Assembly (NCBI RefSeq): GCF_000150955.2
Contig: NC_011676.1
Span: 62,001-126,000, forward strand
DNA: 64,000 bases
Direction of reading: 5' to 3'
Source: Phaeodactylum tricornutum CCAP 1055/1
Lineage: Eukaryota > Bacillariophyta > Bacillariophyceae > Surirellales > Neidiaceae
Position 1 is the first letter of the stretch, and every line of letters starts with the position of its first letter. A program made the translations under genes and the position numbers. The notes below the pieces were generated by a model. The model made no database searches, was not told the DNA's origin, and saw only the letters and a program-made list of their open reading frames with translations. This document shows positions 16,793 through 36,267 of the stretch, in pieces.

Positions 16793-17338
16793 TTATACCA
16801 GTTCCACTTGGGCACCAATTTCTTCCAGTTTGGCCTTGAGTTCTTCCGCTAGTTCCGGCTTGAGATCCTTTTGTATGGTTTTCGGAGCACCTTCCACCAA
16901 TTCTTTGGCTTCTTTCAGTCCCAATCCGGCAATCGACCGAACTTCCTTGATCACTTTGATCTTGGCCTTGGCGTCGTATCCAACGAGTTTCAAATCAAAC
17001 ACGGTCTTGGCCGCCGGAGCGGCTTCCGGACTGACGGCGTTGCTCGCCGCCGCACCGCTGCCGCCGCGTTTCCCACCGAATCCACGGTAGTAGAATTCGT
17101 TTTCGTAAAAGGTCCGACCCAGAATCGTATTAATTTCGTGGCTGAGTTGAATCACGTCCTGTTTCGAACAATTCGCCGTGATGCTTTCGAACAGGGTCTG
17201 CGCTTGAGCCGAGGCGAATTCCGGAGTGGGTGAAGCCTTCGCCGGTGCGGACGACGACGACGACAACGACCGGACACACCGACCGACGCGCATCGGCCCT
17301 GACAATCGTCGGAACAGACTACGCGGGGTAGCTTGCAT
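16793..17338 (-). CDS. Mitochondrial ribosomal protein L7/L12, copy 1
   Basis: 181 residues from ATG 17338. The frame stays open upstream to 17605, but [20 protein letters not shown] is a classical mitochondrial presequence and the better start. Residues about 50-85 ([27 protein letters not shown]) correspond to the L12 dimerisation helices. A Gly/Ala/Ser-rich hinge follows, then the C-terminal factor-binding domain ([38 protein letters not shown]), about 70 residues and complete. L7/L12 forms the ribosomal stalk that recruits translation GTPases. It is one of three paralogs within 7.3 kb; its 3' end faces that of the PsbP-like gene. Confidence 0.9.
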
Positions 17339-18102
17339 GATTCTTCTACGATACGATGGAATCGATTCACTGGGAATGAACGAACGAACGAACGCACTAA
17401 ATGTTCTTCCCAGACGAAAACGTGAAGGACGCACTTGTTTACGTTTCACTCCAAACGATTCGCAGCATATGGGTTTGGACGCGCCTGTGGATTTAAGATT
17501 GGTTACCTCCGGGTGTATCCCATCGTGTCGACACCGCGTTTTCCTCCAGCTCGTCCGAATAGTTCCCCACACCCATTTTAGGAAACTCGAAATGCTACAT
17601 TCCATGAGAGATTCCCTGCCATCATTTTCGGAACGACTTCGAATGTTCGTAAAGGCCGGTCCCTCGAACTATCCGAGATATGCCCCCGAGCGTCTGAATT
17701 TTTGGAATATATGTAACCGTGCGTGACCACAATCGGAAACTTAAACCGAACGACGACTCGGAAGGAACCTGGGTTTGACCGGACTCTGGAAGAGAGACTC
17801 TCTACCACCGAGCTAAAGTAGAATGGAGTCGAGTCGTTATAAATGTCTCGGTCGGTTTCACAGTCAACCCAATGTTACAGTTGCATTGTAACCTCTCACT
17901 AGCTAGATCGAGCTCTTCGTTCCAGTATCCCGACACCAATCGTTCCCAAACGTGGTGACCAATAACTCCTAAAAGATACTTTCTCTGACATTAGCAATTA
18001 GTGAAGGGTCGACCCTCACGCACAGTGCGAAATTTGTGGCATCATTCCGACCGTTTCGGAGTATTTCGGTTGTTGGTTTGTTGAACTATCGTCATCATCG
18101 TC
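17339..18102. promoter_or_regulatory. Divergent upstream region of L7/L12 copy 1 and the first DUF5060 gene
   Basis: 764 bp. Between about 17764 and 17822 on the minus strand there is a tRNA-like A-box (TAGCTCGGTGGTAGAG), but no matching T-loop or acceptor stem. Otherwise no feature recognised. Confidence 0.4.
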
Positions 18103-20916
18103 ATGGTGCCACGGATTCCAATCATCTTGGTGTTCGCAGGGTGGCTGGGCGTGTTGTCGACCACTGCCCAACGCCTGACAAGCTTTACGCTCATCAACGC
18201 CCAAACCAATCAACCAATTGGACTCATTGAGGACAACGACCTCATTGATGTCCAAGCCGTGGGAGCGTCCGCCTTGAGTTTGCGCGCCAATATTAACAAC
18301 AACACAACCAGTGTTGGTTCGGTTCGATTCTTCATCAACGGCGAAACAAGCGCGGTAGAGAACGTAGTGCCGTACGCCTTGGGTGGGGATACGGACGGAA
18401 ACTACAACGCCGTCCCTGCCCTCGTGACGCCTGGATCGGTCATGGTGCGAGCCACACTCTGGAGTGGGCCGGACGGCACCGGAGATCAACTGCAATCGGT
18501 AACCCTCACATTGCAAGTGTTTGTTGCGGGTAACGCAGACGTGCCGACACTGTCGCCCAATACGGTAGCGGCATCCACCGGTGGCGACGTTGGAAGATAT
18601 CCCGCCAGTCCGGAAGGAACTGTGTCTGGTGTTCGGCAGGTGTGGCACAAGGTGACTCTGGGCTTTGTCGGACCAAATGCCAGCGAAACCGCCACTCCGA
18701 ATCCCTTTACCGATTATCGACTGGACGTTACGTTTACGAGTTTGGACTCGCCCCAGTCCTTTACGGTCCCGGGCTACTACGCCGCGGACGGAAACGCCGC
18801 CAATACCGGCGCGTCGTCTGGTGCCGTGTGGCTCGTACACTTTGCTCCCGACCTTGACGGGAACTGGGCCTGGGAAGCCAACTTTACCACCGGCACCCTC
18901 GTGGCCCAGTACGGAGACGGCAGCTCGGCCGGGTTTTTCGACGGGGCGTCCGGGAATTTCTCCGTCGCTACCAGTAACAAGAAAGGTCGAGACTTTCGTG
19001 CCCGAGGGCGACTCCAGTACGTCGGTGAGCATCATCTCAAATTCCCCAACGGCGAATGGTTCCTCAAGGCCGGCGCCGATAGTCCGGAAAACTTTTTGGC
19101 TTACGAGGATTTCGACAATACTCCCAATCAAGGGGGGAGGCGCAAGTCGTGGGCTCCCCACACGCAAGACTATACCGAGGGAGATCCCACTTGGGCCGGG
19201 GGTAAGGGGAAAGGAATGATTGGAGGTACGTACAGGGAGAAGATTGAAATGAAGCGGTACGGAGTTTACGTGGAACATGCGATACCTAACTCGTCCCGTT
19301 TGCTCCTCCGCCATCAAGCGCTCAATTACCTGGCGAACAAGGGTATGAACGCGTTTAGCTTTTTACCAATGAACATCGAAGGTGACGACAAAAACGTGTT
19401 TCCGTACGTTTCCGATGCCGCTGGGGAAGACCGAATGCGGATAGACGTTTCGAAAACGGCTCAGTGGGAGGTTGTATTTGAGCACGCGGATCATTTGGGG
19501 CTCTTTTTGCACTTCAAAACGCAAGAGACAGAGAACGATCGATTGTTGGACAACGGAAGCTTGGGCGACGAACGACGACTGTACTATCGCGAGCTCGTCG
19601 CGCGCTTTGGTCATCATCTTGCTTTGAACTGGAATTTGGGCGAGGAAAACAGAAATACGGATATGCAACGGAAAGCCTATACCGACTACTTCAAAGAAAT
19701 TGATCCCTACCAGCACCCAGTTGTCGTACACACATTTCCGCGACAAAAAGAAGCAATCTACGCTGATTTACTTGGCTACTCTACTTTTGACGGGGCCTCG
19801 TTGCAATCTAGTCCACAACTTGTGTTTAATGACACTCTCGAGTGGCGGACCCGATCAGCTGCGGCTGGTCGGAAATGGGTCGTGGCAAATGACGAGCAAG
19901 GAGATGCTCAGACCGGAGTTGCTCCAGATGACGTGGATCCGACTCACGACGGCATCCGAGAAAACGTGCTCTGGGGAAATCTCATGGCCGGTGGTGCCGG
20001 AGTAGAGTATTACTTCGGTTATCGATACGCCAACTCGGATTTGACCTGTGAAGACTGGCGCAGTCGCGATGCCATGTGGGATCTTTCACGATACGCACTC
20101 GAATTCTTCCAGAACAATACTATTGAATTCTGGAAAATGTCGAACGCCAATGATCGAGTCTCCAATGGATGGTGTCTAGCTCACGAGGACGGTACAATGA
20201 TGGTGGTATATTTGATTGACGGAGGGACCGCGTCTATCGATCTCGCAGGATCTACAGGCACAACCTATACCTCCAAATGGTTCAATCCTCGTACAGGAGG
20301 AGCTTTACAGGATGGTTCCGTGCGCAGTTTGAATGTTGGAGGTACCCAATCTCTAGGAAATGCTCCCGACGGTGCTCCCGGAGATTGGGTGGTACTGATA
20401 ACCCTGGACGCCGCCTTTGTTACCCCTGCTCCAGTCAATCAACCTACTTCAAGTCCGGTTGTATTTCCAACACAGAATTCTACACAGCCACCAGTGGTAA
20501 ACGCAAGCAGTGTGCCAACCGTAAGCCCCATCAGCGAATCTGTCCCATCCGCTGCTCCAGTCGCAGCACCTATCCGTGCCCCCACAACGGCTACCCCCAT
20601 ATTGGCGCCTACCAATCTCCCAACGGCATTGCCGTCATCAAGCGCTACAACGGTAAGTTCACATGAGGCAACAAGTGACAGACCCAGTGTTTACCGAGGT
20701 GATATACCCAGCGACGTCTCGAGCGCTCTTGTGAGCGACGGGGCGAACAATGTTCCTTGTTTTCTTTCCACGAAAAGCTTTAGCTTACCCACCGCCCTTT
20801 TATTTCCCAACTCTAAGCAGTCTCTCAGGCCAACTACACTGACATCCTCCGCTTTCTCCGCAACAAAAAAGCTCCACCCTATTTTTTACTTGGCAATGCT
20901 TTTCTTGTCTTGGTAA
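18103..20916 (+). CDS. Secreted DUF5060/DUF4038-type glycoside-hydrolase-like protein, copy 1
   Basis: Exons 18103-19225 and 19319-20916 (intron 93 nt, GTACGT...CAAG, phase 1). The intron is inferred because copy 3 has one at the same site; it is a multiple of three with no stop, so the unspliced frame reads through. Signal peptide at 1-22 (...LSTTAQ). Then an Ig-like domain (SFTLINAQTNQPI...), DUF5060 (about 165-300; PFTDYRLDVTF, VPGYYAADGNAAN), a TIM-barrel-like region (LQYVGEHHLKFPNGEWFLKAG; LALNWNLGEENR; WVVANDEQGD; ENVLWGNLMAGGAGVEY) and a collagen-binding-like beta domain (KWFNPRTGGALQDGSV). A Ser/Pro/Thr stalk and a short hydrophobic C-terminus suggest a GPI or membrane anchor. Related proteins are known from marine bacteria. 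This is the only copy of three that keeps NLGEEN, so it is the likeliest active enzyme. Its substrate, presumably a polysaccharide, is unknown. Confidence 0.83.
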   Translation: MVPRIPIILVFAGWLGVLSTTAQRLTSFTLINAQTNQPIGLIEDNDLIDVQAVGASALSLRANINNNTTSVGSVRFFINGETSAVENVVPYALGGDTDGNYNAVPALVTPGSVMVRATLWSGPDGTGDQLQSVTLTLQVFVAGNADVPTLSPNTVAASTGGDVGRYPASPEGTVSGVRQVWHKVTLGFVGPNASETATPNPFTDYRLDVTFTSLDSPQSFTVPGYYAADGNAANTGASSGAVWLVHFAPDLDGNWAWEANFTTGTLVAQYGDGSSAGFFDGASGNFSVATSNKKGRDFRARGRLQYVGEHHLKFPNGEWFLKAGADSPENFLAYEDFDNTPNQGGRRKSWAPHTQDYTEGDPTWAGGKGKGMIGGTYREKIEMKRYGVYVEHAIPNSSRLLLRHQALNYLANKGMNAFSFLPMNIEGDDKNVFPYVSDAAGEDRMRIDVSKTAQWEVVFEHADHLGLFLHFKTQETENDRLLDNGSLGDERRLYYRELVARFGHHLALNWNLGEENRNTDMQRKAYTDYFKEIDPYQHPVVVHTFPRQKEAIYADLLGYSTFDGASLQSSPQLVFNDTLEWRTRSAAAGRKWVVANDEQGDAQTGVAPDDVDPTHDGIRENVLWGNLMAGGAGVEYYFGYRYANSDLTCEDWRSRDAMWDLSRYALEFFQNNTIEFWKMSNANDRVSNGWCLAHEDGTMMVVYLIDGGTASIDLAGSTGTTYTSKWFNPRTGGALQDGSVRSLNVGGTQSLGNAPDGAPGDWVVLITLDAAFVTPAPVNQPTSSPVVFPTQNSTQPPVVNASSVPTVSPISESVPSAAPVAAPIRAPTTATPILAPTNLPTALPSSSATTVSSHEATSDRPSVYRGDIPSDVSSALVSDGANNVPCFLSTKSFSLPTALLFPNSKQSLRPTTLTSSAFSATKKLHPIFYLAMLFLSW

Positions 20917-21611
20917 GCGCAAGACTATGCGGAGTAGGGCTACAGTTGCGTGTGCCGCTCGAAGCTACAAAGCCACCTTGGCTGTGCCAAAGTCGGCAAG
21001 CGACTAATGTAGACCGGGTTCACAATGCTCGGCACGTATCTGCAATTTTTTTTATAAAAAACGATCAATCGCGCATAATCCACATCATCATAGGTTGCTT
21101 TATATTAATTCTCAGCAAGAACAAGGCCGGAGGGGAGCAGGCGCCTCCGACGTTGCGCTAGGGGTTTTGCATCGAACTAGTTTCATGGTGCACATTGGTG
21201 TCATACTTACGACCATACCGAGCTTCCCCGTATATATTTCCGTTACTTCTTTCCAATGGTGGAGGTATCTGTATTTCGCCTTGCTGCTGGAACCCTAGTT
21301 TCCTGCTTTGCGTCTCGTGTGTGACTTACAGTCAATAGTAAGCTCTTTTTTATTGTCCACTAATGGCACCAACTGCCACTACCACTCTAGAAGTTATAAA
21401 GTTTATGAAAAAAGAGCAAAGCTATTTTGATCCACCGGTAGTCCTTTCGTACGCACTACGATGAAGGGCGGGTTGTCCCTACAGCCGATCCCTCTATAAA
21501 TTTGGTCTTACTCTAGTTCCAGAGTGTTTTTTTAAGCAACCCTGCACAATCCACGTAATACCTACACGGTTCACCATGAAACTAGCTATGCTATAGTAGG
21601 CCGTTTACTCT
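20917..21611. other. Intergenic region between converging genes
   Basis: 695 bp, AT-rich in places, including a T run at 21048-21056. Contains a CTTACAGTCAAT word at 21324-21335. No coding support. Confidence 0.4.
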
Positions 21612-22259
21612 CTATACGAGTTCTACTTGGCCGCCAGCTGCTTCCAGTTTAGCCTTGAGTTCTTCCGCTTGTTCCGGTTTGAGATTCTTGAGAATGACTT
21701 TAGGCGCGCCTTCGACCATTTCCTTGGCTTCTTTGAGTCCCAGTTCAGCGAGAGACCGTACTTCCTTGATGACTTTAATTTTTGCCGACGCGTCGTAGCC
21801 GACGAGTTTGAGATCGAACGTGACGGGGGCGGCTTCGACGGGTGCCGCCGCGGGTCCTCCGGGACCCGCCAAGGATTGTCCGTCGATTCGAGCCTGCCGT
21901 ACGAGCAACTGCCGCTCCAACGCTTGACTCTGTTTGGGTGTGAGGACAATCCCCAATCGGCGGTTTATTTCGTCGTTGAGCGTGCCGAGTTCAAACAAAT
22001 CGAGCCAGAGGAGTTTGTGAAAAATGGCGTCGACGGTCGCGATTTGGGTAGCGTTGAGACGATGCGTCGTCCAGATAATTGGTCGAGGAGATGCGGTGGC
22101 ACTATTGGTACTGGTGTCACTATTGGCTTGTGCTGGAGTCGAGGCAACGGCGGTGGCAGCAGTGGACAAATTAGATCTCCCAGCCGACGTTTGGAGCCGG
22201 CGCCCACAACTTCTCACACGGAATCGTGGGGCAAGCGCTGTGGAGCATCGAGACAGCAT
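21612..22259 (-). CDS. Mitochondrial ribosomal protein L7/L12, copy 2
   Basis: 215 residues, single exon, ATG 22259. The first about 35 residues ([20 protein letters not shown]...) are rich in Arg, Ser and Ala without acids, a mitochondrial presequence. A longer N-terminal linker than in copy 1 leads to [22 protein letters not shown], an L12 dimerisation-type helix pair. A Gly/Pro/Ala hinge and the conserved C-terminal domain follow ([39 protein letters not shown]), ending GGQVELV. It is transcribed divergently from copy 3, 752 bp away. Three paralogs might form mixed stalk oligomers; that is inference. Confidence 0.9.
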
Positions 22260-23011
22260 TACAATACGTATGTGTGTGTGTGTATATATATGTATAAGTG
22301 TGTGTCAGGTGTCGAATGTGCAGTGGGAACAAAGAGACCGCCTCGCTAGAGGATAACAGTGACTACAACACTAGAGAAGTGCTACTTCGCTATACAGACA
22401 CACACGCCATGCCATGGTGGAATGGAATGGCCCGAGTAGTCGGCTCTCGCATTCGGACGCGTACGTACGGCGTCCGATTGCAAGAACCGTCGACCTGTTC
22501 CCGAGCCTTTCGGGTTCCATGCCACTTCAGAAAATAATAGAATTCCGTATTCTATTAGACAATCTGCCGACTTCCCCCGTTCGTACCGTGTCCACCACCG
22601 CACATTTTGCAGTGCTACTGAAACGCCCGCAACGCTACACCATCTCCGTCGCATCGGACCCCCTCGTGTTCTCAGCGTCCGTTGTCGTCGTCGTTTACAC
22701 TAGTAGTGATCCGGTGTGCGTGTGTGTGAAAGAAAGAGGCTGGAACTATTTCGTGTTGGTGTGTATTTGTCGATTCCTCTCGAAAGCGAGAGACACACAA
22801 GACAAAGATAGACGAATATCTATCAACCTTTGTATCCTTTTCGATCGAGACCCAAAAGACGGTGAACGGTTCCCAGCACTATTTAGCTAGTTTGTATTTT
22901 GGGAAAGAATTGAATTGACTGTGAACGCTCGGTTCCTTCCGCCTACATCTATTCGTACTTGTCCCTCTGTCCCATCCATAAACCGCAGAGGCGCATCAAT
23001 TCCTTGCCATC
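22260..23011. promoter_or_regulatory. Divergent upstream region shared by L7/L12 copies 2 and 3
   Basis: 752 bp between two paralogous starts. It includes a GT/TA-rich microsatellite at about 22269-22302. No coding support. Confidence 0.45.
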
Positions 23012-24049
23012 ATGTCCTCCTGTCGCTTACCCTTACGGACAGCCTTGCGGCAGCAACACACAGGACCAGCGCTACGCTTTCCCTGGCGCGCATGTACACT
23101 CATTGGCACACCACCCTGCACACCGACGGTACACCAGAGTGCCGTCCGCACGTTGGCTTCGACGACCCACACCGCACGTCCGTCCATGATGCGCGCTTCC
23201 CTCGGCGTTCCGCCGCGTGCTCGGGGACTTTTCCTTACATTCCCGTTACCCCGACCGACCTCGTGGCTCTCCCTGCACACGTCAACTGTACTGTATCAGG
23301 AAGGCGATAGTAATGGGATTAGTAACAGCAACAGCGACGCACCCAAAGACCCTGCGGCAGCCGTGGACACCCCCACCGAAACACCCGCCACGGAGGAATC
23401 GGTCCCTTCCACTCCCGCAGACGCGGCGACCAGTACGTACACGACACCGGAATTGACGGCGGATGCAGCGGCACACCGCCAAGGGTTGACGGATCCGGAC
23501 CGTCCGCACTGGCAAAATCCACTCCACCACGGCAATCCGGATAACGGAAAAATCTTTCCCGAAGATTTCGACACACCCGAGGCCTTCCACGCCGCCACCG
23601 TGCCGCTCCCACCCCTGGAATACGCCGACGGGACCCTGGCGACGCCCGAGTACCTCCGGGCCATGGCGGACGAAATTGTTCACCTTAACATGTTGGAAAT
23701 GAACGAACTAGTCAACAAAATCGCCGATCATTACGGGTTCGATGACACCATGCTCTCTCCCGATGACGGTGCAGACGATGGGGATGGGGCCCTGGATGGT
23801 CTCGGCGGCGCCGCCGCCGCTCCCGTGGAAGAAAAGAAAGTTTTTGATCTCAAACTTGTCAGTTACGACGACAAGGCCAAGATTAAAGTCATTAAGGAAG
23901 TACGATCCCTCGCTGGATTGGGACTCAAAGAAGCCAAGGAAATGGTCGAAGGTGCGCCCAAAGTCATTCTCAAGGACATCAAAAAGGAACTAGCGGAAGA
24001 ATGCAAGGCCAAGTTGGAAGAAATTGGTGCCGTTATGGAAATTGTGTAA
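23012..24049 (+). CDS. Mitochondrial ribosomal protein L7/L12, copy 3, with a long N-terminal extension
   Basis: 345 residues, single exon, ATG 23012; about twice the length of a bacterial L12. The N-terminus is basic and Ser/Thr/Pro-rich, with Arg-rich helices fitting mitochondrial import. An acidic/Pro-rich linker and an unusual conserved-looking block ([18 protein letters not shown]) come before a clear dimerisation domain ([21 protein letters not shown], about 233-253). A Gly/Ala hinge and the C-terminal domain follow ([38 protein letters not shown]). It has the most canonical L12 N-terminal domain of the three, so it may be the main stalk protein. The role of the extension is unknown. 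Confidence 0.9.
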
Positions 24050-25269
24050 CCGCACGCTAATGCCACCGACGAACGAATCATTCGGGGCCAATGGACACGC
24101 ATCGATTGTGTGTCCATTTCATCGTTCTCATAGGTTTAAATAACGAGCTCGGCCCCCCGTTGACTTAATTTTGTTACGCTCGTGTTGACTCGTTGCTCTG
24201 TACCATTGCTGATCGCTAGGCGGGATCACGTTGAGATGGGCCACGTAGTGAACCCTCGTTCCGATCCAATTGCTTTTGGACCCGACATAGTTCGACTGGA
24301 AAGTGCTGGGGAACAGCGAGCGATTCTCCATTCTTTGTCGCGAAAAATGACCAAAGGGTAGAACCTCTAATTCCTACCAAGGTGTGAGAGCTGCACTCAC
24401 CGATAAAAAATCGGAAGTTTAGTACTGCCGAGTAAAAACAACAACGATGATTCCAAGAGTTCGAAAGGGAAGTGGATCTTGGACGAGGGACAGCCTGGGG
24501 TTCGAGGTTCTGCTCGGTTAGCAGAGTCCCGCACGAAATCTTTGGCACTATGGGTAACCAAGAGTTTATAAAACACGGGTACCCTGGAGAGGATGGTTTA
24601 TTTTAGGTTAACTATAAGTGATTAGCATTTCCTAGCACACGCTTGAGTAGAGTGTCTGGTAGCCTATCCCGTAGACCGTAACCGATAGAAGTGACGGACG
24701 TTTCCCAGAGAGCTTTGCCATACCGTAATGTCTGACTGTGAACAGAGCGTGAACGGAGGAGGAAGGGATAAACACTCACTCGGCACGTTTGAGGCATAAG
24801 GTATGGTAGCACTCATTCCCTATCGATGTACGCCCTACTACCGATGGTCACGAACGCTGATGTTTATGTTCATGCAATATGCTTATCGTATTTTCGAAAG
24901 TACTAAAAACTCCTTAGTTGAAAGTGTGGTTTTGTCTCAAACGGTTATCAACAAATAACATTCCCACTTACAATTAGATAAAGTGAAAGTTGGTTACAAG
25001 CGAAAAAGAAGTCTTCCCTCATTTGTGTACAACGCTGGTCGCCGCTGCACCTTCACTTTTTGCGTTCCGTCAGAATGACCATTTTTTTCAATCCGGGACA
25101 GATTGCATTCACAGTTAATCGCCTAAATAATTCGTTTACAGTTAGCATTCCTGGAGCAAGCGCAAAAGGGTGTCGTTTCTTTCCATTGTCGATAGGAGTC
25201 CGGCAAAAAAACACACGATACACAGTGTGGTGAGGTAGCGCGCGACCTATCTATAAGGCAGTTTGCATC
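24050..25269. other. Long intergenic region upstream of the glycosyltransferase gene
   Basis: 1220 bp. No frame has domain or codon support. TTCACAGTTAAT (25108-25119) and TTTACAGTTAG (25135-25145) lie close together about 130 bp before the start codon and could be part of the promoter. Confidence 0.4.
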
Positions 25270-27784
25270 ATGAACAGAGGCGGTGCTCGTTTGTCTTTGT
25301 ATTGGTTTTGGGGAGCATGCCTGTGTTTGTGCAGTCTACGTTTGGTGGCGTGGGATGTTTCTTTTCTGCGCTTTTTGTCGCCAGTCACTCTCGCAGACTA
25401 TGAGTTCCCTGAAGCTGACCTCTATGTCGATCCGGTTATCCCCGTCAATCCCTATCCAAGCCCCGCACTAGCACCACTTTCAATACGAGGAAATACAAAC
25501 ACCCAAGCAGCCGAGCCCAAATCACAACAGGCCGCCGAATCGTCCCACAATCAATCCGAGTCTCGCAGTGACAATAACACTTTCCAGCAAACGAACATTA
25601 TTCCACAGGGTCGGCAGCTACGTTTCCCGTCCGTCTCCGATCGCTTGCTTCGGTACCTCGGGAATGACTGGTCCCTCGACCGAGGTCCGGAGGCTCCGGT
25701 GTGGCGGTATGCAAGGGTTGATCCCAATCTGGTGAAACTTTATCCTCCTTCGGAAAACCACGTTATCAAAGTCCCTACGAAACTGTCCCTGGACGCACCG
25801 TTCGTGGTCGACATGGTCGCCGCGCGGTGGCAATTGCGGGAGTTGGTCACCAACAGGAGTGTCGCCGCCACGCAACAATACTTTTTCAATGCCGTAAATT
25901 CCATTTTCTACGGAGTTGATTTGCAGGAATGGAAGTACAATCGAAACGCGGTGCCCATTTTCGCGAACATGGCGAGTCCGGACGCCATGGAAGTATCGTC
26001 CATAGTACGGTACCCGCAATGGACGTGGGCTCGACGGCGAGACACGAATGCAACCGAAAGCAATACAGCAACGGCCCACCGCGCCGGCACAGATAAAGTT
26101 GGCAACGAACCAACACCAACATCACCTCCACCGCAACCGATTCTGTGGAACCCCTTTTCCAGCCTTCGGCACCGCAAACAGATAATGGACAGTACCACTA
26201 ATACGGACGTGGATTGGCTGCAAAAGCAAAACGAGGCACTTCTCACGCAATCTTGCCTGTCCAAGCCGAAATGCCAATCAATTGCCACCCCTTTGTCAAT
26301 ACCCAGCAATATACCCCACCTCCTATTGACTGCCGCACCCCGGAAAGGATACCGCTCCAAAGTGCTGGTCCTTCTTCCCGCTCTCGATCGTGAGGAGCTT
26401 GTTCGGGCATTGCTTTCCCAGTCGGTTGTACTGATGCCCGTTCCTGTTACCACTTCCTGGTTGATGGAAGATCAACTGGAACCGTGGGTACACTACGTTC
26501 CCCTGGCAGCGGATTTATCCAATCTGGAAGGACAGATGAAGTGGGTATGGGCGAACGACCACGCCGCCCGCCGCATCGCCGAGCGAGCTACCGTCTGGAT
26601 TCACGACTTGTACTTTCATGAAAACGCAACCAAGGACAACGAGTATTTGCAGCGCGAGATCCTCCGCCGATACAAGGCCCTCTTTCAGCCACTCACCGTG
26701 TCTTCAGACTCTACTGTTGGCAACGATCCCATTGTGAAACCCCGAATGAGTGCGCCGACCATCTTTACCGCTGGAGGACAATCTGCCAGTGAGATTATTG
26801 CCGCATCTCGTCGTGTAAAGGCCGACCCGCAGTCTAACATCACCGGCAGTGCAACTTTGAAAACAGCCGTGTGCTACAAGACTCTGTTCGGTGCGGTAGA
26901 CCTGGAGCGTTTCACCCAGTGGGTCGCCTACAATCACCTCTTGGGCTTCGACCACGTCTTTGCGTGGTACCTTCCCGGGCTGCGTCACTACGATGGTTTT
27001 GATACGTTGGCGAATCTACCTTACGTTACGCTTCTCGAAAACAAAGACGATACCAATACTAACCGAAGAGAAACCCGGCTACGAAATTCTTCACGGTTCG
27101 GGTGATCAAAGAGCAGTGGAGCGGTTGTGCCTTCGTGAGACGGCCAAAGACTATGACTGGGTCATGTTTGCGGATGCCGACGAGTATTTGTGGTTCCACG
27201 AAAACATTGGTCTGAAAGAGTTTATTCACAGGTACGGTGGAAACAACACGTATTTGTCCTTTGGTAAGAAAATGTACACAAGGACCCACAGTGTGGATGA
27301 TCGCGACAGCGGATTCGGCTTGGACATGTACCCATTCAACGCTGGCCCGTTCTGCTCGGTACCGCCGGACACCAAAGGCAGCTCGTGGAGCGCACTACGA
27401 ACAAAATATTCTCTCAGTAATCCCGTGTGTCCCATGCATTTTGGCCGTTCCAAAGTCATTGTGCAACCCCGAGCACATGATCGTGTGGGCGTGCACGGCA
27501 CTCACTACCCTCGGTCCGACCGAAAGTCGATTCACTATTCCGTGCACGTAGCGCATTTCAAAGAATGGCCGAAACTGTTTGATGAGGTTGACACCCGATT
27601 ACAAGGCCGTATGAACTTCACCGTCTTTCGTAACGAAAGTCTCAGTATTCATGCTCTCGAGAATGGTCACCAATCCAATGCGGATGGTTCCTATACCATA
27701 TTCTACGACGACCGGTTACATGATTGGTTCGAGTTCGTGGCCAAGCGTGCCGACACATCGAATCTTGGAATGACGGAAAGATGA
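25270..27784 (+). CDS. Dual glycosyltransferase: CAP10/GT90-like domain fused to a GT92-like domain; frame discontinuity
   Basis: ATG 25270 opens a frame to 27105; the rest of the protein continues in the +1 frame to 27784 (together about 835 residues). An N-terminal signal anchor (about 8-45) predicts a Golgi or ER type II protein. Residues about 360-480 match the C-terminal part of CAP10/GT90 enzymes (KVLVLLPALDREELVRALLSQ, VVLMPVP, LEPWVHYVPLAADLSNLEGQ). From about 525 on there is a GT92-like (DUF23) domain: TAVCYKTLF, WVAYNHLLGFDHVFAWYLP, LPYVTLLEN, then in the second frame GDQRAVERLCL, VMFADADEYLWF (acidic metal-binding motif) and PMHFGRSK. The switch lies at about 27050-27075, between conserved motifs. 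I found no GT-AG intron there that restores the frame, so a one-base indel (assembly or real) is likely. Confidence 0.78.
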
Positions 27785-28213
27785 TGAGTTTGAATTGTTG
27801 CTTCGTCTACAAGTCTCTGTAAATATAATACTTTTTTTAATGGATACGGGTGTGTCTATAGGTATCTTTTGTGCTCCGTTCGTTGAGCTCTAGAGCTAGA
27901 CACCGTAAGTTCGAAAGCACCTATTGGTGTGGAACTACAGATTCCATTCCATAGTGTCAGACGTCATCTCGCCGTTCCTTGCATAAAAAGCGGGGTTAGG
28001 GTTGTCGGGTGGTATTCCGGAGGCATGTTTTTAGGGTGTCGTCGGTTTGGACCGAAGGATTTCATCGACGTGAGAGCAGCCGCAACAAGCCAAACTAACT
28101 GTAAACCCAAAATCTTGTTCGATTCTGGGCTTTCGTCAAGAAGCTTTTTCCGTTTCTCAAGCGCCAACCCACTTTCACATTCCCACGGTTGCAGAATGTT
28201 ATCTCGTTGCAAG
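27785..28213. other. Intergenic region
   Basis: 429 bp between the glycosyltransferase and the small mitochondrial protein gene. Contains TAACTGTAAA at 28096-28105. Nothing coding recognised. Confidence 0.4.
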
Positions 28214-28812
28214 ATGTGGCGATCCAGCGTCCACCGGATGTTGCAAGCGTCCACAACTTCCAGGAAACTTCCGTGTTGTGTATCTTCGCGGCGCCTCCTG
28301 AGCGGATCCATTACGGTACGTGTGTGCACTCGTTGGTGCATTGATTTCTGCTACGGTGATATTCAGAATTACGCAGTCTCACGAGCCTGCCTCTCACTCT
28401 GTGGTTCGTGATATACACTGTACGGTGGTGGTAGTATTCGGGTGGACAGGCTACGGAAGGGCAGGGCGGGTACTACGGGAGCGGAGGAGCCCGCGTACTT
28501 CCCCACGACAGCGCAACCGCGTCGGGTCGTTCGATGATGCTGGCACTGGCGCAGGACGTGGAAAAGATCCAGTCCGTCATGACGGAACTGGAAGTCCTGG
28601 AGAACTTGCTGCGTTCGGAAGAAGAAACCGCGCAGGGCTCCGTGACGGGCAAGTCGATCGAACTCAAAGCGAACATTAAGAAACTCATGACGGCCGCCGA
28701 CGTGCTCGAGTCGTTGAACCGACTGGAAGTCCAGGGTGAACCGGTGTGGGGCTTGTCGACGGAGGAACGGGAAATGATCGTAACGGCGCGGGAGAAAGTG
28801 AACGAGTGTTGA
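28214..28812 (+). CDS. Small predicted mitochondrial helical protein, two exons
   Basis: Exons 28214-28315 (34 codons) and 28450-28812, joined in phase 0 over a 134-nt intron with donor GTACGT and acceptor GGACAG, give 154 residues. Exon 1 is a typical mitochondrial presequence (MWRSSVHRMLQASTTSRK...SSRRLLSG), with no acidic residue in its 34 codons. Exon 2 begins Gly/Tyr-rich (ATEGQGGYYGSGGARV), then turns into a charged helical domain (MMLALAQDVEKIQSVMTELE, LKANIKKLMTAADVLESLNRLE) ending EMIVTAREKVNEC. I do not recognise the family. The model rests on the presequence and exact frame-preserving splice sites; a shorter product starting at 28534 is the alternative. Confidence 0.6.
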
Positions 28813-29073
28813 TTTACAAAAAGAAAGGGTACGCGAACGAACTTTGGATCCTTGTATTTATATATGGCGTGGGAGTGGGGTGACCGTGGGGTGTGGTTCG
28901 GACGGAACTCCGCCCCTTTGGGCGAGAGCCTACTACAACCGGTAGATTCGTTCGTCGGTTCCAACTCTATAAATTCCTCATGACTGGTATTACTAGAATT
29001 TATTGTTTGCAGGTTTGAAAGGATTCGTCTCTTGCCGTGAGTATTCGTTTCGTTTCTCGAGTGGTACTCTAGC

Positions 29074-29127
29074 GGTAGCCATGATTGTCTGTAGAGGTAG
29101 CCATGATTGAAAAGGTAGCCATGATTG
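29074..29127 (+). repeat. Three copies of GGTAGCCATGATTG
   Basis: Exact 14-bp units at 29074, 29096 and 29114, separated by 8 and 4 bases of related sequence. No coding or known regulatory meaning. Confidence 0.85.
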
Positions 29128-29322
29128 TCCGTAGCGGTAATTCAACTAGAGTAGAAAACTAGAGTAGAGAGTGTCATCGTCAGTAGCCGTGACTGTTGGA
29201 ATCACCGAACTGTCTGTCAAGCAACAGGAGGTAGATCTGTCCATCATCCTCTCTGCCCAGTATCTAGGGTAGGGGCTAGCAAGCGAGCGACTAGCTAGTG
29301 CGATGGTACCGGCTATTCACGC

Positions 29323-29352
29323 CTACTACTGCTACTACTACTACTACTACTA
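29323..29352. repeat. CTA trinucleotide microsatellite
   Basis: About ten CTA/ACT units, one interrupted by G. Similar runs occur at 29951-30017 and 50930-50952. Confidence 0.9.
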
Positions 29353-30173
29353 GAGTAACAGTGACCGTCACAGTAACAATTAGCTCTAATCGACTAGCCG
29401 TACTGTGTTGTTCGGGAATCACGACTGCAATCACGATCGTCGCCAACCCCAATGGCCCTTCGGGACTAGCCGTTTGCCTGTCAAGGATGACTCTTGACAA
29501 CCCCCTTTTTTCTCCCCCAGTTTCCCACAGCCAGCAAGGAGACACAGTGGTGGCTGTTTTAACTGTTAGTTCGTGACGACCGAGTGCGCGATACACGGTT
29601 CCGACACGACTCGCGGCGCCCAAACAATGTTGGGGGTAACGAGGTATACGTTTTCGTGCTCTCTACTCTCTCTAGAGAGAACTAGACTACTATAGCTAAT
29701 AGATTCACACAATACATTGCATGGCTACCGCAGAAAGGAACAAGGTGTCTCGTCTCGTAAATCACTTCGTCACTCGTATGCTAGCTACTCCCGTAATAAG
29801 ATCTCTCGAACGCTTTCTCCAATTCATTGATCCTTTTGCAATCATTCGTTGCAAACTCGTCAATTGACGGACGGTTACCCAACAACCAATACTGGCACGA
29901 ACGCACAAACAAACGAAGAGTGTAGCGTTGTGTCAAAGTCTCGCGTGTCTACAACTACTACTGTTACTACTACTACTACTACAACAAACACCTACTACTA
30001 CAACAACTACTACTACCAATTGCAACAAAATGGGACAGTCGACCCGTACTTCCCAGAACGACTCTTGGGTACCCCGGCATTTCCGGCACGTTTCTTCTAC
30101 CCAAACGGTCCCGACATGCCCGCACCACCGACAATTTGGAGTCCCTACCGTAGGCTTCCCGATTCACCGACGG

Positions 30174-32507
30174 ATGCTGGTGGCCCTACTGCTCGGGGTA
30201 CTGGGGACGGCGTCCGGGGATACCAACCCATTTTCGTACACCGCCAGTCGAGCAGGGACCGTCTCGGGAACCTTGCGTCAATGGGAAACCATTACGTTGG
30301 CTTTGCGGGGACCTCCCAACAGTAACAACGACAGTAGCGCATCGTCGAATCCGCGCATGGACAATCGACTGGACGTGACCTGGGCTCCCGAAGGATCGCG
30401 CAGTTCGCTCACCGTTCCGGGATATCTCGCGACCACAAGTACCAGCACCAGCTCCAATACCACGAACAATAGTACTACGACGAATCCTGAGACTGACGGG
30501 AGCGTTTGGTTGGTGCACGTCACGTTGGAATCGGCCGGAACCTGGCACTGGGAAGCCTCCTTTCGAACCGGTCCCAACGTGGCTATCCGGAGCATGGACA
30601 ACACCGACGCCAACATCGATACCGACACGGACACGAGCACCTCGGGCTGGGGGGACCGCATTACTGGATCGATCGTGGTGGCACAATCCGCACACGAGGA
30701 TGAATTTGCGTCGGAAAGTGCCCCTGGGGAGACCTTTTGGGAACTAGGGAAACTGGAATACGTCGGAGCACACCACGCTTTGTTTGCTCGGGGTCACGGA
30801 CGGTGGTTTCTGCAGTCCGGAGTCGACCTGGGCAGCACGCTGTTGCGTTGGTTGGACTACGGCACGGACGATTACCCCACCGAAAGCTCTACCACTACTA
30901 CTAGTCTCCCACCAGGCTCTGCGTGGCTAACACGTCACCAAGCCTCCTTCCCGATATCACACCACGCTCCGTCGTGGACTCACGAAATGGGGAATCAGGC
31001 CATGGGACTTCTCGAGTACCTCGCTCGACACGGGGTCAACGCCATTCGTCTGAACGTGTGGGACGATACGGACGCCTCGACATCCCACCAATTCCTCTTT
31101 GCGGCCGACCAGGACCCCAACAGTATCCGTGTCTCCCAACTCGCACGCTGGCAGGTGGCTCTGGAGTACGCGCAACGACTAGGCCTCGCACTACAGATTC
31201 AATTGCACGGCAGCGACGGTCCGGAAAACGAATCACCAGACGTTACTACTGAACAACGACGCAAGCTCTACTACCGTGAACTCGTGGCCCGTTACGGACA
31301 TCATCTAGCCTTGTCGTGGCATTTGGGTCCCGCCGGACCCACGTCGGAATCGCGAGCGAACGATTTGCGTTCCATCGATGCGTACCAGCACACAATTGTG
31401 GTGGATTCCACCACGACGGAACGAGACTTCCCTACTCACAATTTACTGGGAGTCGATACCGTGGACAGCGTAGTCGTGCCGACACCGACCCGCAGTCTCG
31501 CTCTCACCAACACGGTAGTCCGGGATGTGACGACGTGGCGGGACTTGTCGCGAGCCCGCAAGCACCACTGGATCGTTCACACCCAACACGCGTACACTCC
31601 CAGTGCATCGTTGCCACCGCAAGTGCGGCTCCGGGACGACGATGAATACGTGCAAAATATTCGCCGAAACGTCGTATGGGGCAATCTCCTGGCCGGTGGA
31701 GCGGGAGTGGAATACGGTCTGCGCGAGGCGATTGCGAGCAATGGTGCCGACACGCTCGTGGACCTGGAGCGTATATGGCTGTACACCCGATTGGCGTTGG
31801 ATTTCTTGCAAAACTTAACCCCGCGGATCCCGTTCTGGTACATGGTGAACGAAAATTTTCGCGTCACGTCGTCGACTGCGGGGGCGCTGTGTTTGGCGCA
31901 GCCCCGAGGCGACGTGATGGTTTTGTATTTCCCCAAGGGAGGCACGGCACGAGTGCATTTGCCCAAGGGTGACGACGGGACGTCGTACACAATTCAGTGG
32001 TACGACCCTCGTGTCGGCGGTGAGCTCCAAACGGGTAGTATCGCGAGTGTGCAAACCGTAGCGTCGACCAAGGTGTCTCTTGGAACGGCACCCAGTGTAC
32101 CGCATCAGGACTGGGTGGTCTTGTTGCGTAGAGTAGTCGCACCGATCCCCGTCACTCCAAAGACCAGGAATGGACCACGGCCGTGGTGGGGTGTAGGCAT
32201 GACGCTGGGGACAGCGTTGGTGTTGCTACTGACTGGTGTGTTTGTACTCTACCGGTATTACGGTCCATCGGGACGACAACGACGAGGACGGTGGAATACC
32301 GATGCCTGGTACGCCCCACGATCGGGACGGGGTCGTGTATCGGCACTGTCCCGACGACGGGGCACCACCACCCGTTCCAACACCAGCGGTAGTAACAGCA
32401 GTGCGAACGTGAACGTGAGTGCGCATACGTTCGTCCCACGCACGTACGATTCCCATCTCCGCCAAGGTCCACCGGGAAGAGCCGGCCACGGCCATTCCCT
32501 CGTGTAA
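30174..32507 (+). CDS. DUF5060/glycoside-hydrolase-like protein, copy 2, type I membrane form
   Basis: 777 residues from ATG 30174, chosen because MLVALLLGVLGTASG is a clean signal peptide; ATG 30030 would add 48 residues ahead of it. No N-terminal Ig-like domain. DUF5060 region (TASRAGTVSGTLRQWETITLAL, MDNRLDVTW, VPGYLATT, GTWHWEASFRTG), then a barrel-like region (KLEYVGAHHALFARGHGRWFLQSG, LLEYLARHGVNAIRLN, NVVWGNLLAGGAGVEY) and a beta domain (QWYDPRVGGELQTGSI). Where copy 1 has NLGEEN and NDEQG, this copy has HLGPAG and TQHAY, so the candidate acidic residues are gone. Near the C-terminus lies one transmembrane helix (VGMTLGTALVLLLTGVFVLY), then a basic Arg/Ser tail. It has no intron at the site used by copies 1 and 3. 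Likely a non-catalytic surface protein. Confidence 0.8.
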   Translation: MLVALLLGVLGTASGDTNPFSYTASRAGTVSGTLRQWETITLALRGPPNSNNDSSASSNPRMDNRLDVTWAPEGSRSSLTVPGYLATTSTSTSSNTTNNSTTTNPETDGSVWLVHVTLESAGTWHWEASFRTGPNVAIRSMDNTDANIDTDTDTSTSGWGDRITGSIVVAQSAHEDEFASESAPGETFWELGKLEYVGAHHALFARGHGRWFLQSGVDLGSTLLRWLDYGTDDYPTESSTTTTSLPPGSAWLTRHQASFPISHHAPSWTHEMGNQAMGLLEYLARHGVNAIRLNVWDDTDASTSHQFLFAADQDPNSIRVSQLARWQVALEYAQRLGLALQIQLHGSDGPENESPDVTTEQRRKLYYRELVARYGHHLALSWHLGPAGPTSESRANDLRSIDAYQHTIVVDSTTTERDFPTHNLLGVDTVDSVVVPTPTRSLALTNTVVRDVTTWRDLSRARKHHWIVHTQHAYTPSASLPPQVRLRDDDEYVQNIRRNVVWGNLLAGGAGVEYGLREAIASNGADTLVDLERIWLYTRLALDFLQNLTPRIPFWYMVNENFRVTSSTAGALCLAQPRGDVMVLYFPKGGTARVHLPKGDDGTSYTIQWYDPRVGGELQTGSIASVQTVASTKVSLGTAPSVPHQDWVVLLRRVVAPIPVTPKTRNGPRPWWGVGMTLGTALVLLLTGVFVLYRYYGPSGRQRRGRWNTDAWYAPRSGRGRVSALSRRRGTTTRSNTSGSNSSANVNVSAHTFVPRTYDSHLRQGPPGRAGHGHSLV

Positions 32508-33298
32508 CGGACGCAAGGTGGGTGCTGGGGAACGGGGACACTGTGGGGCTAGTGGTTATAAGAGTGGTTGTGGTTGTTAGGGTCGTTGTTACAAGAATCA
32601 ATAAACGAAAAAAGACTAACCGTATGTAGAGATAGATACTGGAGTTTTGACTAGATTCCCACCTTTGGTCCAGAGGTAGTGTTACAGTTTGCCACGGTTG
32701 CTTCCCGCCAAGGTAGATCCCCTTCTCGGTGCCTGTACTGCGGTAACTCTAGAATTGTGGGCGTCCATGCTCCTACTAGAGGGGAGATATGGACCTATAT
32801 TTATATAGATATACATAAAACGGTGCCGTCAATATTCTAGAGGGCATGGGATGGTCGCAAACGCCGGGGGAGCTATTTCCTTGTCACTCGGGAACACCAA
32901 AATGTCAACGGGAGTCACGCGCGGTGACCAAGCCACCGGGATTTCTCTGCCAGCCGTACTGCGGTACCGTACCGTACAATACGTTATGCGTTGTTCGTTG
33001 TTCCCTAGTGGCCATCCCACAATTCCATCCGGACTCTCCCTTGGGTTGGTCGTTTGACAAACCTACCAAAACACCACTCTAGCCCGACCTTGTTACCCAA
33101 CATCTACTCACGGTCCGAGTCTATCCGAGTGATTCGTCGTCGTGGATATCGGTGAGAAAACGAGACGCCCAGAGACTTTTTGAAGAGGCAACGATTTCGC
33201 TTCCTACCCGACACCATGATAGTACTGCGTGATTCACACCCCGACGGGTCGAAGGATCCGTATTGCAACGACTACACTCGCAACAGGCACGGGTATGG
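32508..33298. other. Intergenic region between DUF5060 copies 2 and 3
   Basis: 791 bp. Contains an AT-rich element (TATATTTATATAGATATACATA, 32793-32815) and a short upstream frame (ATG 33216 to a TAG overlapping the copy 3 start), which could act as an upstream ORF. Confidence 0.4.
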
Positions 33299-36267
33299 AT
33301 GCTGCTAGTGAGCTTGTTGTGTGCGAGTCTCGTCGTCCCCGCACAAAGTCAGAGTGCCCGCATTACGGGCTTTTCCTTGCTGAACGCGGACACCCATCAA
33401 GTGATTCAACCATTACGCAACGGAGACGACATTGATTTGTTCCGCGCCGGAACGACGTTGCTCTCGATTCGTGCGGAAGTGTCCGGATCACTCGAGGGAG
33501 GTTCCGTCCAGATGATCCTGAATGGACGAGTGCGCAACGTGGACGTCAGTCCTCCGTACAGTCTCGGAGGCGACAACAACAACAACAACAACACAACGCA
33601 CAATACGAGAGTATCCCGGAATTGGCCCAGTGGGGTGGACATTCCGTACAGGCTCGTATTATGGAATTCCCGGACGGCACCGGAAACGTGCAAGACTCCC
33701 GTTCGATTGGCTTTGCCATCCGCAATTCGGATCCCAACGCTCCCACGGCGGCACCCGTCACACCCGAACCTACGACCCCTTGGACCGGCGAAAGTATCTC
33801 CCCCAGCACTGGTGACGGAGATGACTTTGCCACGGCGGCGCCTACGGCTTCCAACGTGCAGACTCCTCCCACCACACCCACGTCGACGGTGGCCTCGCCT
33901 TTTCCTACGGCTCCACCCGTCCCCGTACGGCCACTCGAACCAACCGACGTACACGCCTATCCCGCCAGTGTTCGGGGAACACTCTCCGGTACCTTGGAAC
34001 CGTGGAGTAAGCTTACCTTGTGTTTCCTAGCCACTACTACTGATGACACCAGCGCGACCGCAACGACAACCTCCGCATTCACCCACGAACGCAACGAAAC
34101 CGTCAATCCCTTTACGGACATTCGCCTCGACGTCACCTTTACCGCGCTCGAAGAACCCGTGGAACTCGTCGTTCCGGGATACTACGCGGCCGATGGCCAC
34201 GCCGCCCATACACACGCTACCGCCGGGGCCGTCTGGTGCGTACACGCCACCCTGCCCTCGGAAGGCTCCTGGATGTGGCGCGCCAACTTTTGGCACGGTG
34301 CCAACGTCGCACTCTTTGACGTCAACCACGGAGGCGTCGTCAAAACACCGCTCTTTCCCGTACACGGGTCCACCGGACAATTCATCCTCACGCCAACCAC
34401 CGCCAACGGCGACGACGAAGACGACCTGGCCACGGGCCGGGCTGTTACCAACGCCACGACACCGCGGCGGACGCGGGGACGACTCCAGTACGTGGGAGAA
34501 CACGCGTACAAGTACCCCAGTGGCAACGATTGGTGGTTGAGTTTCGGTGCCGCGAGTCCGTCCAACGGTCTCGCGTACGATCGCTTCGACGGAACCACCA
34601 ATGCCGGGGAACGCCGCAAATCCTGGACACCCCACGCTGACGATTACGTATCCGGCAATCCGACCTGGGCCGGTGGACAAGGCCGAGAACTCGTGGGTGG
34701 TACGTGCGTGTGTGTGTGTACATGTCGAACCCCCCAAAGTGATGGTTGTTGTAGTGGTAGTGTTTGGTGTGAAGGTTGTGTTTGTGATTGTATAAATGTG
34801 TATACTGACGCTGTCGATTGTTCTCGTTTTCGTTCGTCTTCCATCTTTGTTACAGCACTCAACTACTTGGCGAGTCAGAGTTTGAATCTCGTGACATTTT
34901 CGACCTTGACCTTGGGTGGACCGGACGGTAACGTTTTCCCGTTTGTGTCACCGCAACCATCGGATCGATTCCGTATGGACGTTTCCAAACTGGCGCAATG
35001 GGAAGTAGTGTTCCAGCATGCCGATGAACTCGGGTTGCTGCTGAATTTGCGACTCGAGTCCGAGTCCGCAGCGGACGTCCTGGATGGGAAAGCTGGCGTC
35101 TTGGGACTTCGACGACGCTTGTACTATCGTGAAATGATTGCTCGATTTGGTCATCATCTTTCCCTGATTTGGAATTTGGGCACCGCAACAGCTACGGCTA
35201 GCTTCAGTACCGCAAACCAGCAATCGCTGACCAACTACATTCGGAGTGTGGACCCGTACGAACATCCTGTGGTTTTACAGACGCCATCGAACCAGCAAGC
35301 CGAAGTTTACGAAGCCTTGTTGTCGAGTTCGAATGTAGCCGTGGAAGGAACCTCGCTAGCTTCCGATCTATACGATACGTTCAACGATACGCTGATCTGG
35401 AGATCGTTGTCCGCCGAACAAGGTCACAAATGGGTCGTCACCAGTGAATATCAAGGTTCGCAAGGCGCAACCGCGGATAGGGATGATCCCACGCACGATG
35501 AATTCCGCGTTGAAGTCCTGTGGGGTAATCTTTTAGCGGGTGGTACCGGAGTTGCGTACCATTTTGGTGACGAAAGGGGCGACAGCAGCGGGTGTTCCGA
35601 CTTGGCCTGTCAAGACTGGCGCAGTCGGGAGGCTTTATGGGGTCAATCACGCTATGCTCTGGAATTCTTTCGTGAAAACAGTATCCCGTTTTGGAACATG
35701 GGCAATTCGAACGAGCGCTGCACGGACGGCAATCGATGCTTTTCTAACGACGAATTTGTTGTGGTGCAGGTCCTACGAACCGACACACCCAGTCTCGTCG
35801 ACTTGACGACGCCGTCTCCCGTCGTCGCAACGTACAGCTTAAAGTGGTTTGACCCACTCCTCGGCGGACCCCTCCAGGATGGCAGTGTTGCCTCCGTGTT
35901 TTCCGGTCCTGCACAGGATCTTGGCACTCCACCAACTTCAACTGGCCAGGAGTGGATTGCTTTGCTCACACGCAACCGGTTGCCACCCACGACAGCCCCA
36001 ACAATTTCGTTGGCCCCAACACAAAGTCCTCTTCTGGTTGTGGTGCCTCCGACCCACGCACCTCACGTACCAGGGACACCCACTGGTACACCCATAGAGA
36101 TGCCCTCGTTCAGAGAGTCTGATTTCCTTTCCAGAACCATTGAACCGACCTCTGGACCCCCTAGTGAAGGCGTGTCGAGTGCCGTGGCTCCTACGGCGAA
36201 TATCAGTGCCGTTATTCAATGGATTCTTTTATTCTTGATCTTGGGGCTGGTACGAGTGAACCCATAA
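33299..36267 (+). CDS. DUF5060/glycoside-hydrolase-like protein, copy 3; intron and frame discontinuity
   Basis: ATG 33299 begins a signal peptide (MLLVSLLCASLVVPAQSQ) and an Ig-like domain parallel to copy 1 (ARITGFSLLNADTHQVI...PYSLGGD). Near 33610-33620 homology passes to another frame (PELAQWGGHSVQ aligns with copy 1 PALVTPGSVMVR), which runs to 36267. Either a small indel, or a 41-nt GT-AG intron at 33612-33652, would explain it; I favour the indel. A real intron at 34700-34855 (156 nt, GTACGT...TTACAG, phase 1) sits exactly where copy 1 has its intron. DUF5060, barrel-like and beta domains follow as in copy 1, but NLGEEN is replaced by NLGTAT. A Pro/Thr stalk and hydrophobic C-terminus (VIQWILLFLILGLV) suggest membrane or GPI anchoring. 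Confidence 0.75.

Follow-up and report, generated by a model that had tools for sequence, protein, structure and literature searches.

In the eukaryotic cytosolic stalk, P1 and P2 are diverged paralogues that share a factor-binding end and belong to a family unrelated to L12. For the mitochondrial stalk protein L12, plants carry several nuclear genes: according to PMC6953067, potato has four paralogues that differ in their association with ribosomes, and three bL12m genes are listed for Arabidopsis. The second group of proteins relevant here, the DUF5060/apiosidase-like glycoside hydrolases, is found in Bacteroidota, Planctomycetota and Verrucomicrobiota. A 64,000-nucleotide stretch of the diatom Phaeodactylum tricornutum CCAP 1055/1 (contig NC_011676.1, positions 62,001 to 126,000 of the forward strand; referred to as the window, with positions counted from its first letter) holds three L7/L12 genes of mitochondrial type (L12-1 to L12-3) and three DUF5060/glycoside-hydrolase-like genes (GH-1 to GH-3), interleaved in part (Table 1). 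Both triplets are real, well bounded and mostly ordinary, and each probably arose by local expansion of its own family, independently of the triplet that it adjoins. As in the plants, several nuclear genes encode one mitochondrial stalk protein, so that an initial sequence-only reading of the locus was too strong in calling mitochondrial L12 normally single-copy; the diatom copies all lie within 7.3 kb, and their N-terminal parts have diverged far more than the C-terminal domain, which may set them apart from the plant copies. The GH proteins resemble the bacterial hydrolases in domains and enzyme fold, and GH-1 also in its acidic EE and DE motifs, but the genes are eukaryotic, two have a probable intron, and two of the three lack the motif glutamates.

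Table 1. Features of the L12 and GH locus, in window coordinates.
Feature	Position	Strand	Description	Profile scores
L12-1	16793..17338	-	mitochondrial-type L7/L12, 181 amino acids	PF00542 85 bits; TIGR00855 85.1
L12-2	21612..22259	-	mitochondrial-type L7/L12, 215 amino acids	PF00542 80.8 bits; TIGR00855 71.7, under cut-off
L12-3	23012..24049	+	mitochondrial-type L7/L12, long N-terminal extension, 345 amino acids	PF00542 80.7 bits; TIGR00855 87.0
GH-1	18103..20916	+	N-terminal region, DUF5060, barrel enzyme domain, Collagen_bind_2, Pro/Thr-rich tail; 906 amino acids if spliced	
GH-1 probable intron	19226..19318	+	phase 1, 93 nucleotides, GTACGT...AAG borders	
GH-2	30174..32507	+	DUF5060, apiosidase-like domain, Collagen_bind_2, hydrophobic segment (by eye), tail	
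GH-3	33299..36267	+	N-terminal region, DUF5060, enzyme-like domain, hydrophobic C-terminus (by eye)	
GH-3 probable intron	34700..34855	+	phase 1, 156 nucleotides, GTACGT...CAG borders	
Glycosyltransferase gene	25270..27784	+	GT90-like part, then GT92; between L12-3 and GH-2, in neither family	

The P. tricornutum assembly (27,450,724 bases, 88 contigs) was searched for both families. A six-frame search with the L7/L12 C-terminal domain (PF00542) and a search with DUF5060 (PF16586) gave three matches each, all in the window and confined to a single 20-kb stretch, and the six loci stand where the sequence-only reading had placed them. A plastid-genome L12 is expected and would lie beyond these searches if the assembly is without the plastid. 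The GH-1 protein as query gave six matches, of which five fell on its own gene or on parts of GH-2 and GH-3; the sixth, weak (E 0.002) and on another contig (C15), covered query residues 783-853 in the tail beyond the enzyme domains and is taken as chance. The gene order is L12-1(-), GH-1(+), L12-2(-), L12-3(+), glycosyltransferase(+), GH-2(+), GH-3(+). L12-1 and GH-1 are indeed divergent neighbours, as had been noted, with a gap of 764 bp, and L12-2 and L12-3 are also divergent, with a gap of 752 bp.

All three L12 proteins carry the C-terminal domain at 80.7-85 bits (cut-off 25.9), and L12-1 and L12-3 also exceed the cut-off of the whole-protein model TIGR00855 (84.4), with L12-2 below it. 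Identity across this domain is 57/68, 56/68 and 53/68 for pairs 1-2, 1-3 and 2-3 (78-84%), and the N-terminal parts are near-unalignable among the copies. In a DNA self-comparison of 14.0-38.0 kb, matches between L12 copies stopped at most about 10 nucleotides from the domain or stop codon, or earlier. Alignment scores for the 300 nucleotides downstream were equalled by 18, 178 and 177 of 200 shuffles (pairs 1-2, 1-3, 2-3), and those for the 600 nucleotides upstream by 182, 12 and 0; the last value, for L12-2/L12-3, was discarded, as the two segments are overlapping DNA on opposite strands and hold a palindrome. This palindrome, of about 49 bp (22441-22489), lies in the gap between the two genes and matches its own reverse complement at 84%.

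The N-terminal part of L12-3 gave a weak match to the N-domain model PF16320 (16.5 bits, cut-off 25; E 0.0068) and 12.1 bits against a bacterial N-domain profile, a score reached in 0 of 300 shuffles. When compared with solved structures, the whole of L12-1 aligned with pig mitochondrial L12 over residues 13-178, and L12-2 aligned over its C-terminal part. An 18-residue stretch of L12 pattern was recognised by eye in all three proteins, and the L12-2 model has N-terminal helices at 70-85 and 91-102 with a predicted local distance difference test (pLDDT) score of 68-75, in a low-confidence model (mean pLDDT 53, C-terminal part mostly below 70) with which a fold search returned nothing at E 0.001. 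From the N-terminal matches, the L12 pattern and the weak L12-2 helices, all three are therefore likely to be functional L12 proteins. Against this stands the finding that the N-terminal parts of L12-1 and L12-2 were unmatched by any N-domain profile, including the bacterial one, and that the N-terminal part of L12-1 alone matched no L12 among solved structures. The N-termini are arginine-rich and acid-poor (5-7 Arg against 0-1 acidic residues among the first 40 of each), a composition from which, with further inference, the three are assigned to the mitochondrion as a prediction.

Relatives of the L12 proteins were collected as 22 open reading frame matches in 21 loci (15 viral-contig and 6 plasmid records), of which 10 were used both for the tree and for the bacterial N-domain profile; the 12 dropped comprised one duplicate (L110, identical to L108), nine that did not resemble complete L12 proteins, and a pair from L111, diverged but L12-like, which could be argued to be whole. 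Against these ten bacterial or viral-contig proteins, the C-terminal domains of the diatom copies form one clade (100/100). The viral-contig search found its 15 loci with an L12-type domain when queried with the L12 alignment, and no relatives when queried with L12-1 alone; four of these viral-collection contigs (L098, L099, L100 and L108) carry whole bacterial-type L7/L12 genes. The assembly gave three matches to Ribosomal_L10 (PF00466), which on inspection are P0-like, plastid-type L10 and MRT4-like; a mitochondrial L10 partner was not recognised among them and may be too diverged. A search of open-licence PMC papers returned none on the mitochondrial ribosomal protein L12 of Phaeodactylum; in the available text of PMC7596299, mitochondrial ribosomal proteins form a co-expressed group mentioned without L12, and the L12 discussed in that of PMC5139114 is the cytosolic one.

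Searched as proteins, GH-1 (66 bits) and GH-3 (37 bits) exceed the DUF5060 cut-off of 27.2 and GH-2 (25.4) falls slightly under it; in the genome search all three lie above it, at 71.5, 40.6 and 30 bits. By sequence, GH-1 matched no solved structure at E 0.01. Fold comparison of its model identified the enzyme domain as a barrel, and the solved relatives of the GH enzyme part are 4n0r, the GH140 protein BT_1012 (5msy) and the GH5 mannanase ManDH5. In the GH-1 model an acidic EE pair follows the strand at 353-356 and a DE pair ends the strand at 438-444; both are retained in GH-1 and kept in all 79 usable bacterial rows. At these sites GH-2 has PA and QH, and GH-3 has TA and EY, the aspartate of DE being replaced by a still acidic glutamate. 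Because the glutamates are absent at both motif sites, GH-2 and GH-3 are probably pseudoenzymes, as predicted from the alignment. This loss of catalytic residues in two of three copies was missing from the sequence-only reading and is worth following; a search of open-licence PMC papers returned none on glycoside hydrolase pseudoenzymes in diatoms and, on DUF5060, unrelated work only.

The comparison set for the GH proteins was drawn from 401 loci in bacterial and archaeal genomes, of which the 80 that ranked highest in likeness to GH-1 were kept, with 79 usable rows. In a tree of 55 of these rows the three diatom proteins form one clade (98/98), as they do in a smaller tree of 23 rows (100/98). 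In both families, the diatom copies thus cluster against the sequences sampled. Since the three form one clade against bacterial homologues, one acquired gene was probably duplicated in place, and a bacterial source would be the simplest reading, the comparison set being bacterial. The N-terminal region of GH-1 is present in 17 of 81 bacterial loci (some incomplete), so the GH-1 architecture up to the tail exists in bacteria. Over 599 columns, the bacterial sequence most like GH-1 reaches 58% identity, exceeding that of GH-1 to GH-3 (49%) and GH-2 (37-38%), whereas the best bacterial matches of GH-2 (32%) and GH-3 (42%) within the comparison set fall below their identity to GH-1. Several points weigh against a single acquisition followed by duplication within the diatom: the set ranked by GH-1 may miss nearer kin of GH-2 and GH-3, these two are long branches of odd composition (end branches of 4.14 and 1.4, compared with 0.29 for GH-1), and the trees are without other eukaryotes, so that duplication before the diatoms or separate transfers from related donors are possible. 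The plasmid collection gave a single tblastn match, a Catenovulum gene 42% identical, and the viral contigs gave no relatives with either GH-1 alone or the GH alignment. The Catenovulum DUF5060 homologue lies within 12 kb of four sulfatase/arylsulfatase genes and a sodium:solute symporter (L016, 6559-9623, 16981-18630 and 22901-24343), likely a locus for sulfated polysaccharide.

GH-1 and GH-3 each contain an insert at the identical aligned position and phase. The Catenovulum homologue runs uninterrupted across the GH-1 insert site, and the GH-1 model, otherwise good, falls below pLDDT 50 at residues 220-247, which cover most of the insert; both inserts are probable introns. They are stop-free and a multiple of three in length, so that retention would keep the frame, which explains why an unbroken frame was seen previously. 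GH-2 lacks both the insert and the N-terminal region. The span 33299-36267 of GH-3 is not a single open frame: apart from the probable intron, GH-3 shifts frame at, or close to, a run of AAC (33575-33592), and just past this run its second frame was seen by eye to align with GH-1. The shift may be a genuine allele, come from a short intron or be an error of the assembly. The intervening glycosyltransferase gene also shows a frame change, near 26990-27105, with an intron or sequence error likely, and it had no match in the plasmid collection.

In the account we favour, with good though incomplete confidence, a single bacterial-type DUF5060/apiosidase-like glycoside hydrolase gene would have entered the lineage, gained an intron and been duplicated in place. 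GH-1 would have remained a secreted, probably surface-held enzyme predicted to act on polysaccharide, and GH-2 and GH-3 would have diverged rapidly, with loss of the catalytic glutamates, to become probable glycan binders or wall/adhesion proteins. Independently, a single mitochondrial L12 gene would have been duplicated twice in place, its C-terminal domain, which recruits elongation factors, staying near-constant and its N-terminal part, which dimerises and docks on uL10m, diverging. The interleaving would then follow from how insertions and inversions succeeded one another in a small region, and a shared function is unnecessary. Independent local duplication suffices, given that the diatom Seminavis robusta has 4594 tandem duplicates and 1741 genes putatively derived from bacteria (PMC7335047). 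Stalks built from the three L12 proteins would probably be mixed, or come in alternative compositions. In the human mitoribosome six bL12m N-terminal domains have been resolved (PMC7438116), so a stalk could in principle hold several paralogues; a reading in which the L12s are not interchangeable, each N-terminal domain having its own place among the dimers on mitochondrial uL10m in a position-specific hetero-stalk from one gene cluster, is a doubtful extension of this. A mixed stalk is opposed by the statement in PMC6953067 that each mitoribosomal protein is represented by one polypeptide per ribosome, which would place paralogues in separate pools. Heteromeric assembly here is a proposal, and the diatom stalk would resemble that of P1/P2 only if it were heteromeric.

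The sequence-only reading had suggested that one segmental duplication could join both families. In its most developed form, an ancestral divergent L12(-)/GH(+) pair would have been duplicated to give L12-1/GH-1 and a second pair, of which the L12 then underwent inverted duplication (L12-2/L12-3) and the GH tandem duplication (GH-2/GH-3). This fits the observed order and orientation of the six genes and is in keeping with the best GH trees, which join GH-2 and GH-3 (97/96 with 55 rows, 97/91 with 23). It also agrees with the synonymous differences of the L12 C-terminal domains (0.55, 0.53 and 0.43), lowest for L12-2/L12-3, with the identical codons of this pair, the most numerous at 38/53, and with the 240 nucleotides 5' of the domain, which in L12-2/L12-3 reach a score of 29 equalled in 0 of 200 shuffles (41 and 22 of 200 in the other two pairs). 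However, the alternative pairings GH-1+GH-3 (p-AU 0.12, approximately unbiased test) and GH-1+GH-2 (0.10) were not rejected, which also counts against any firm GH order within the account of independent expansions, and the intron site pairs GH-1 with GH-3 but leaves the order undecided, as its absence from GH-2 may be a secondary loss. L12-2 and L12-3, despite their shared codons, have the fewest identical residues, and the L12 tree leaves the order within its clade unresolved, again a point against the favoured account. The supposed units show no intergenic similarity: DNA around L12-1/GH-1 gave only chance-level alignments with that around the other copies (three of 17-22 bp, E 0.64), in a test limited by saturation. 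Synonymous sites are saturated among the GH genes (differences of 0.78, 0.77 and 0.70) and less so among the L12 genes. A common age of both families could be masked by saturation, codon bias or gene conversion; a linked duplication is nevertheless unsupported by these comparisons, and we consider it unlikely.

Gene conversion might alternatively have kept just the C-terminal domain alike among old L12 copies. The contrast between the two ends of the proteins would fit, as would the identical codons at shared residues, which exceed random-codon expectation in all three pairs (32 vs 22.8, 35 vs 23.4 and 38 vs 22.2), but run-length tests for conversion tracts were non-significant in six of six (p 0.06-0.91), and purifying selection with the codon bias of ribosomal genes would give the same pattern, which makes conversion an improbable explanation. 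Old, separate origins, with the copies arriving independently and becoming neighbours by chance, might account for the saturated GH divergence and the strongly different L12 N-terminal parts; set against the single clade of each family, the common phase-1 intron site of GH-1 and GH-3 and the concentration of all matches of both families within one 20-kb stretch, such origins are very hard to credit.

If all three L12 copies are used, this laboratory diatom would make heterogeneity of the mitoribosome open to test in a protein whose anchor evolves at a very different pace from the end that recruits factors. In the GH triplet, a compact example, a bacterial-type enzyme gene retained a single enzyme-like copy, and two others became probable pseudoenzymes. 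Neither triplet needs the other, and the idea of a linked duplication should not be carried forward without synteny from diatoms; what is worth following is the catalytic loss in two of the three GH proteins and the contrast, in each L12 protein, between a constant end and a diverged one.

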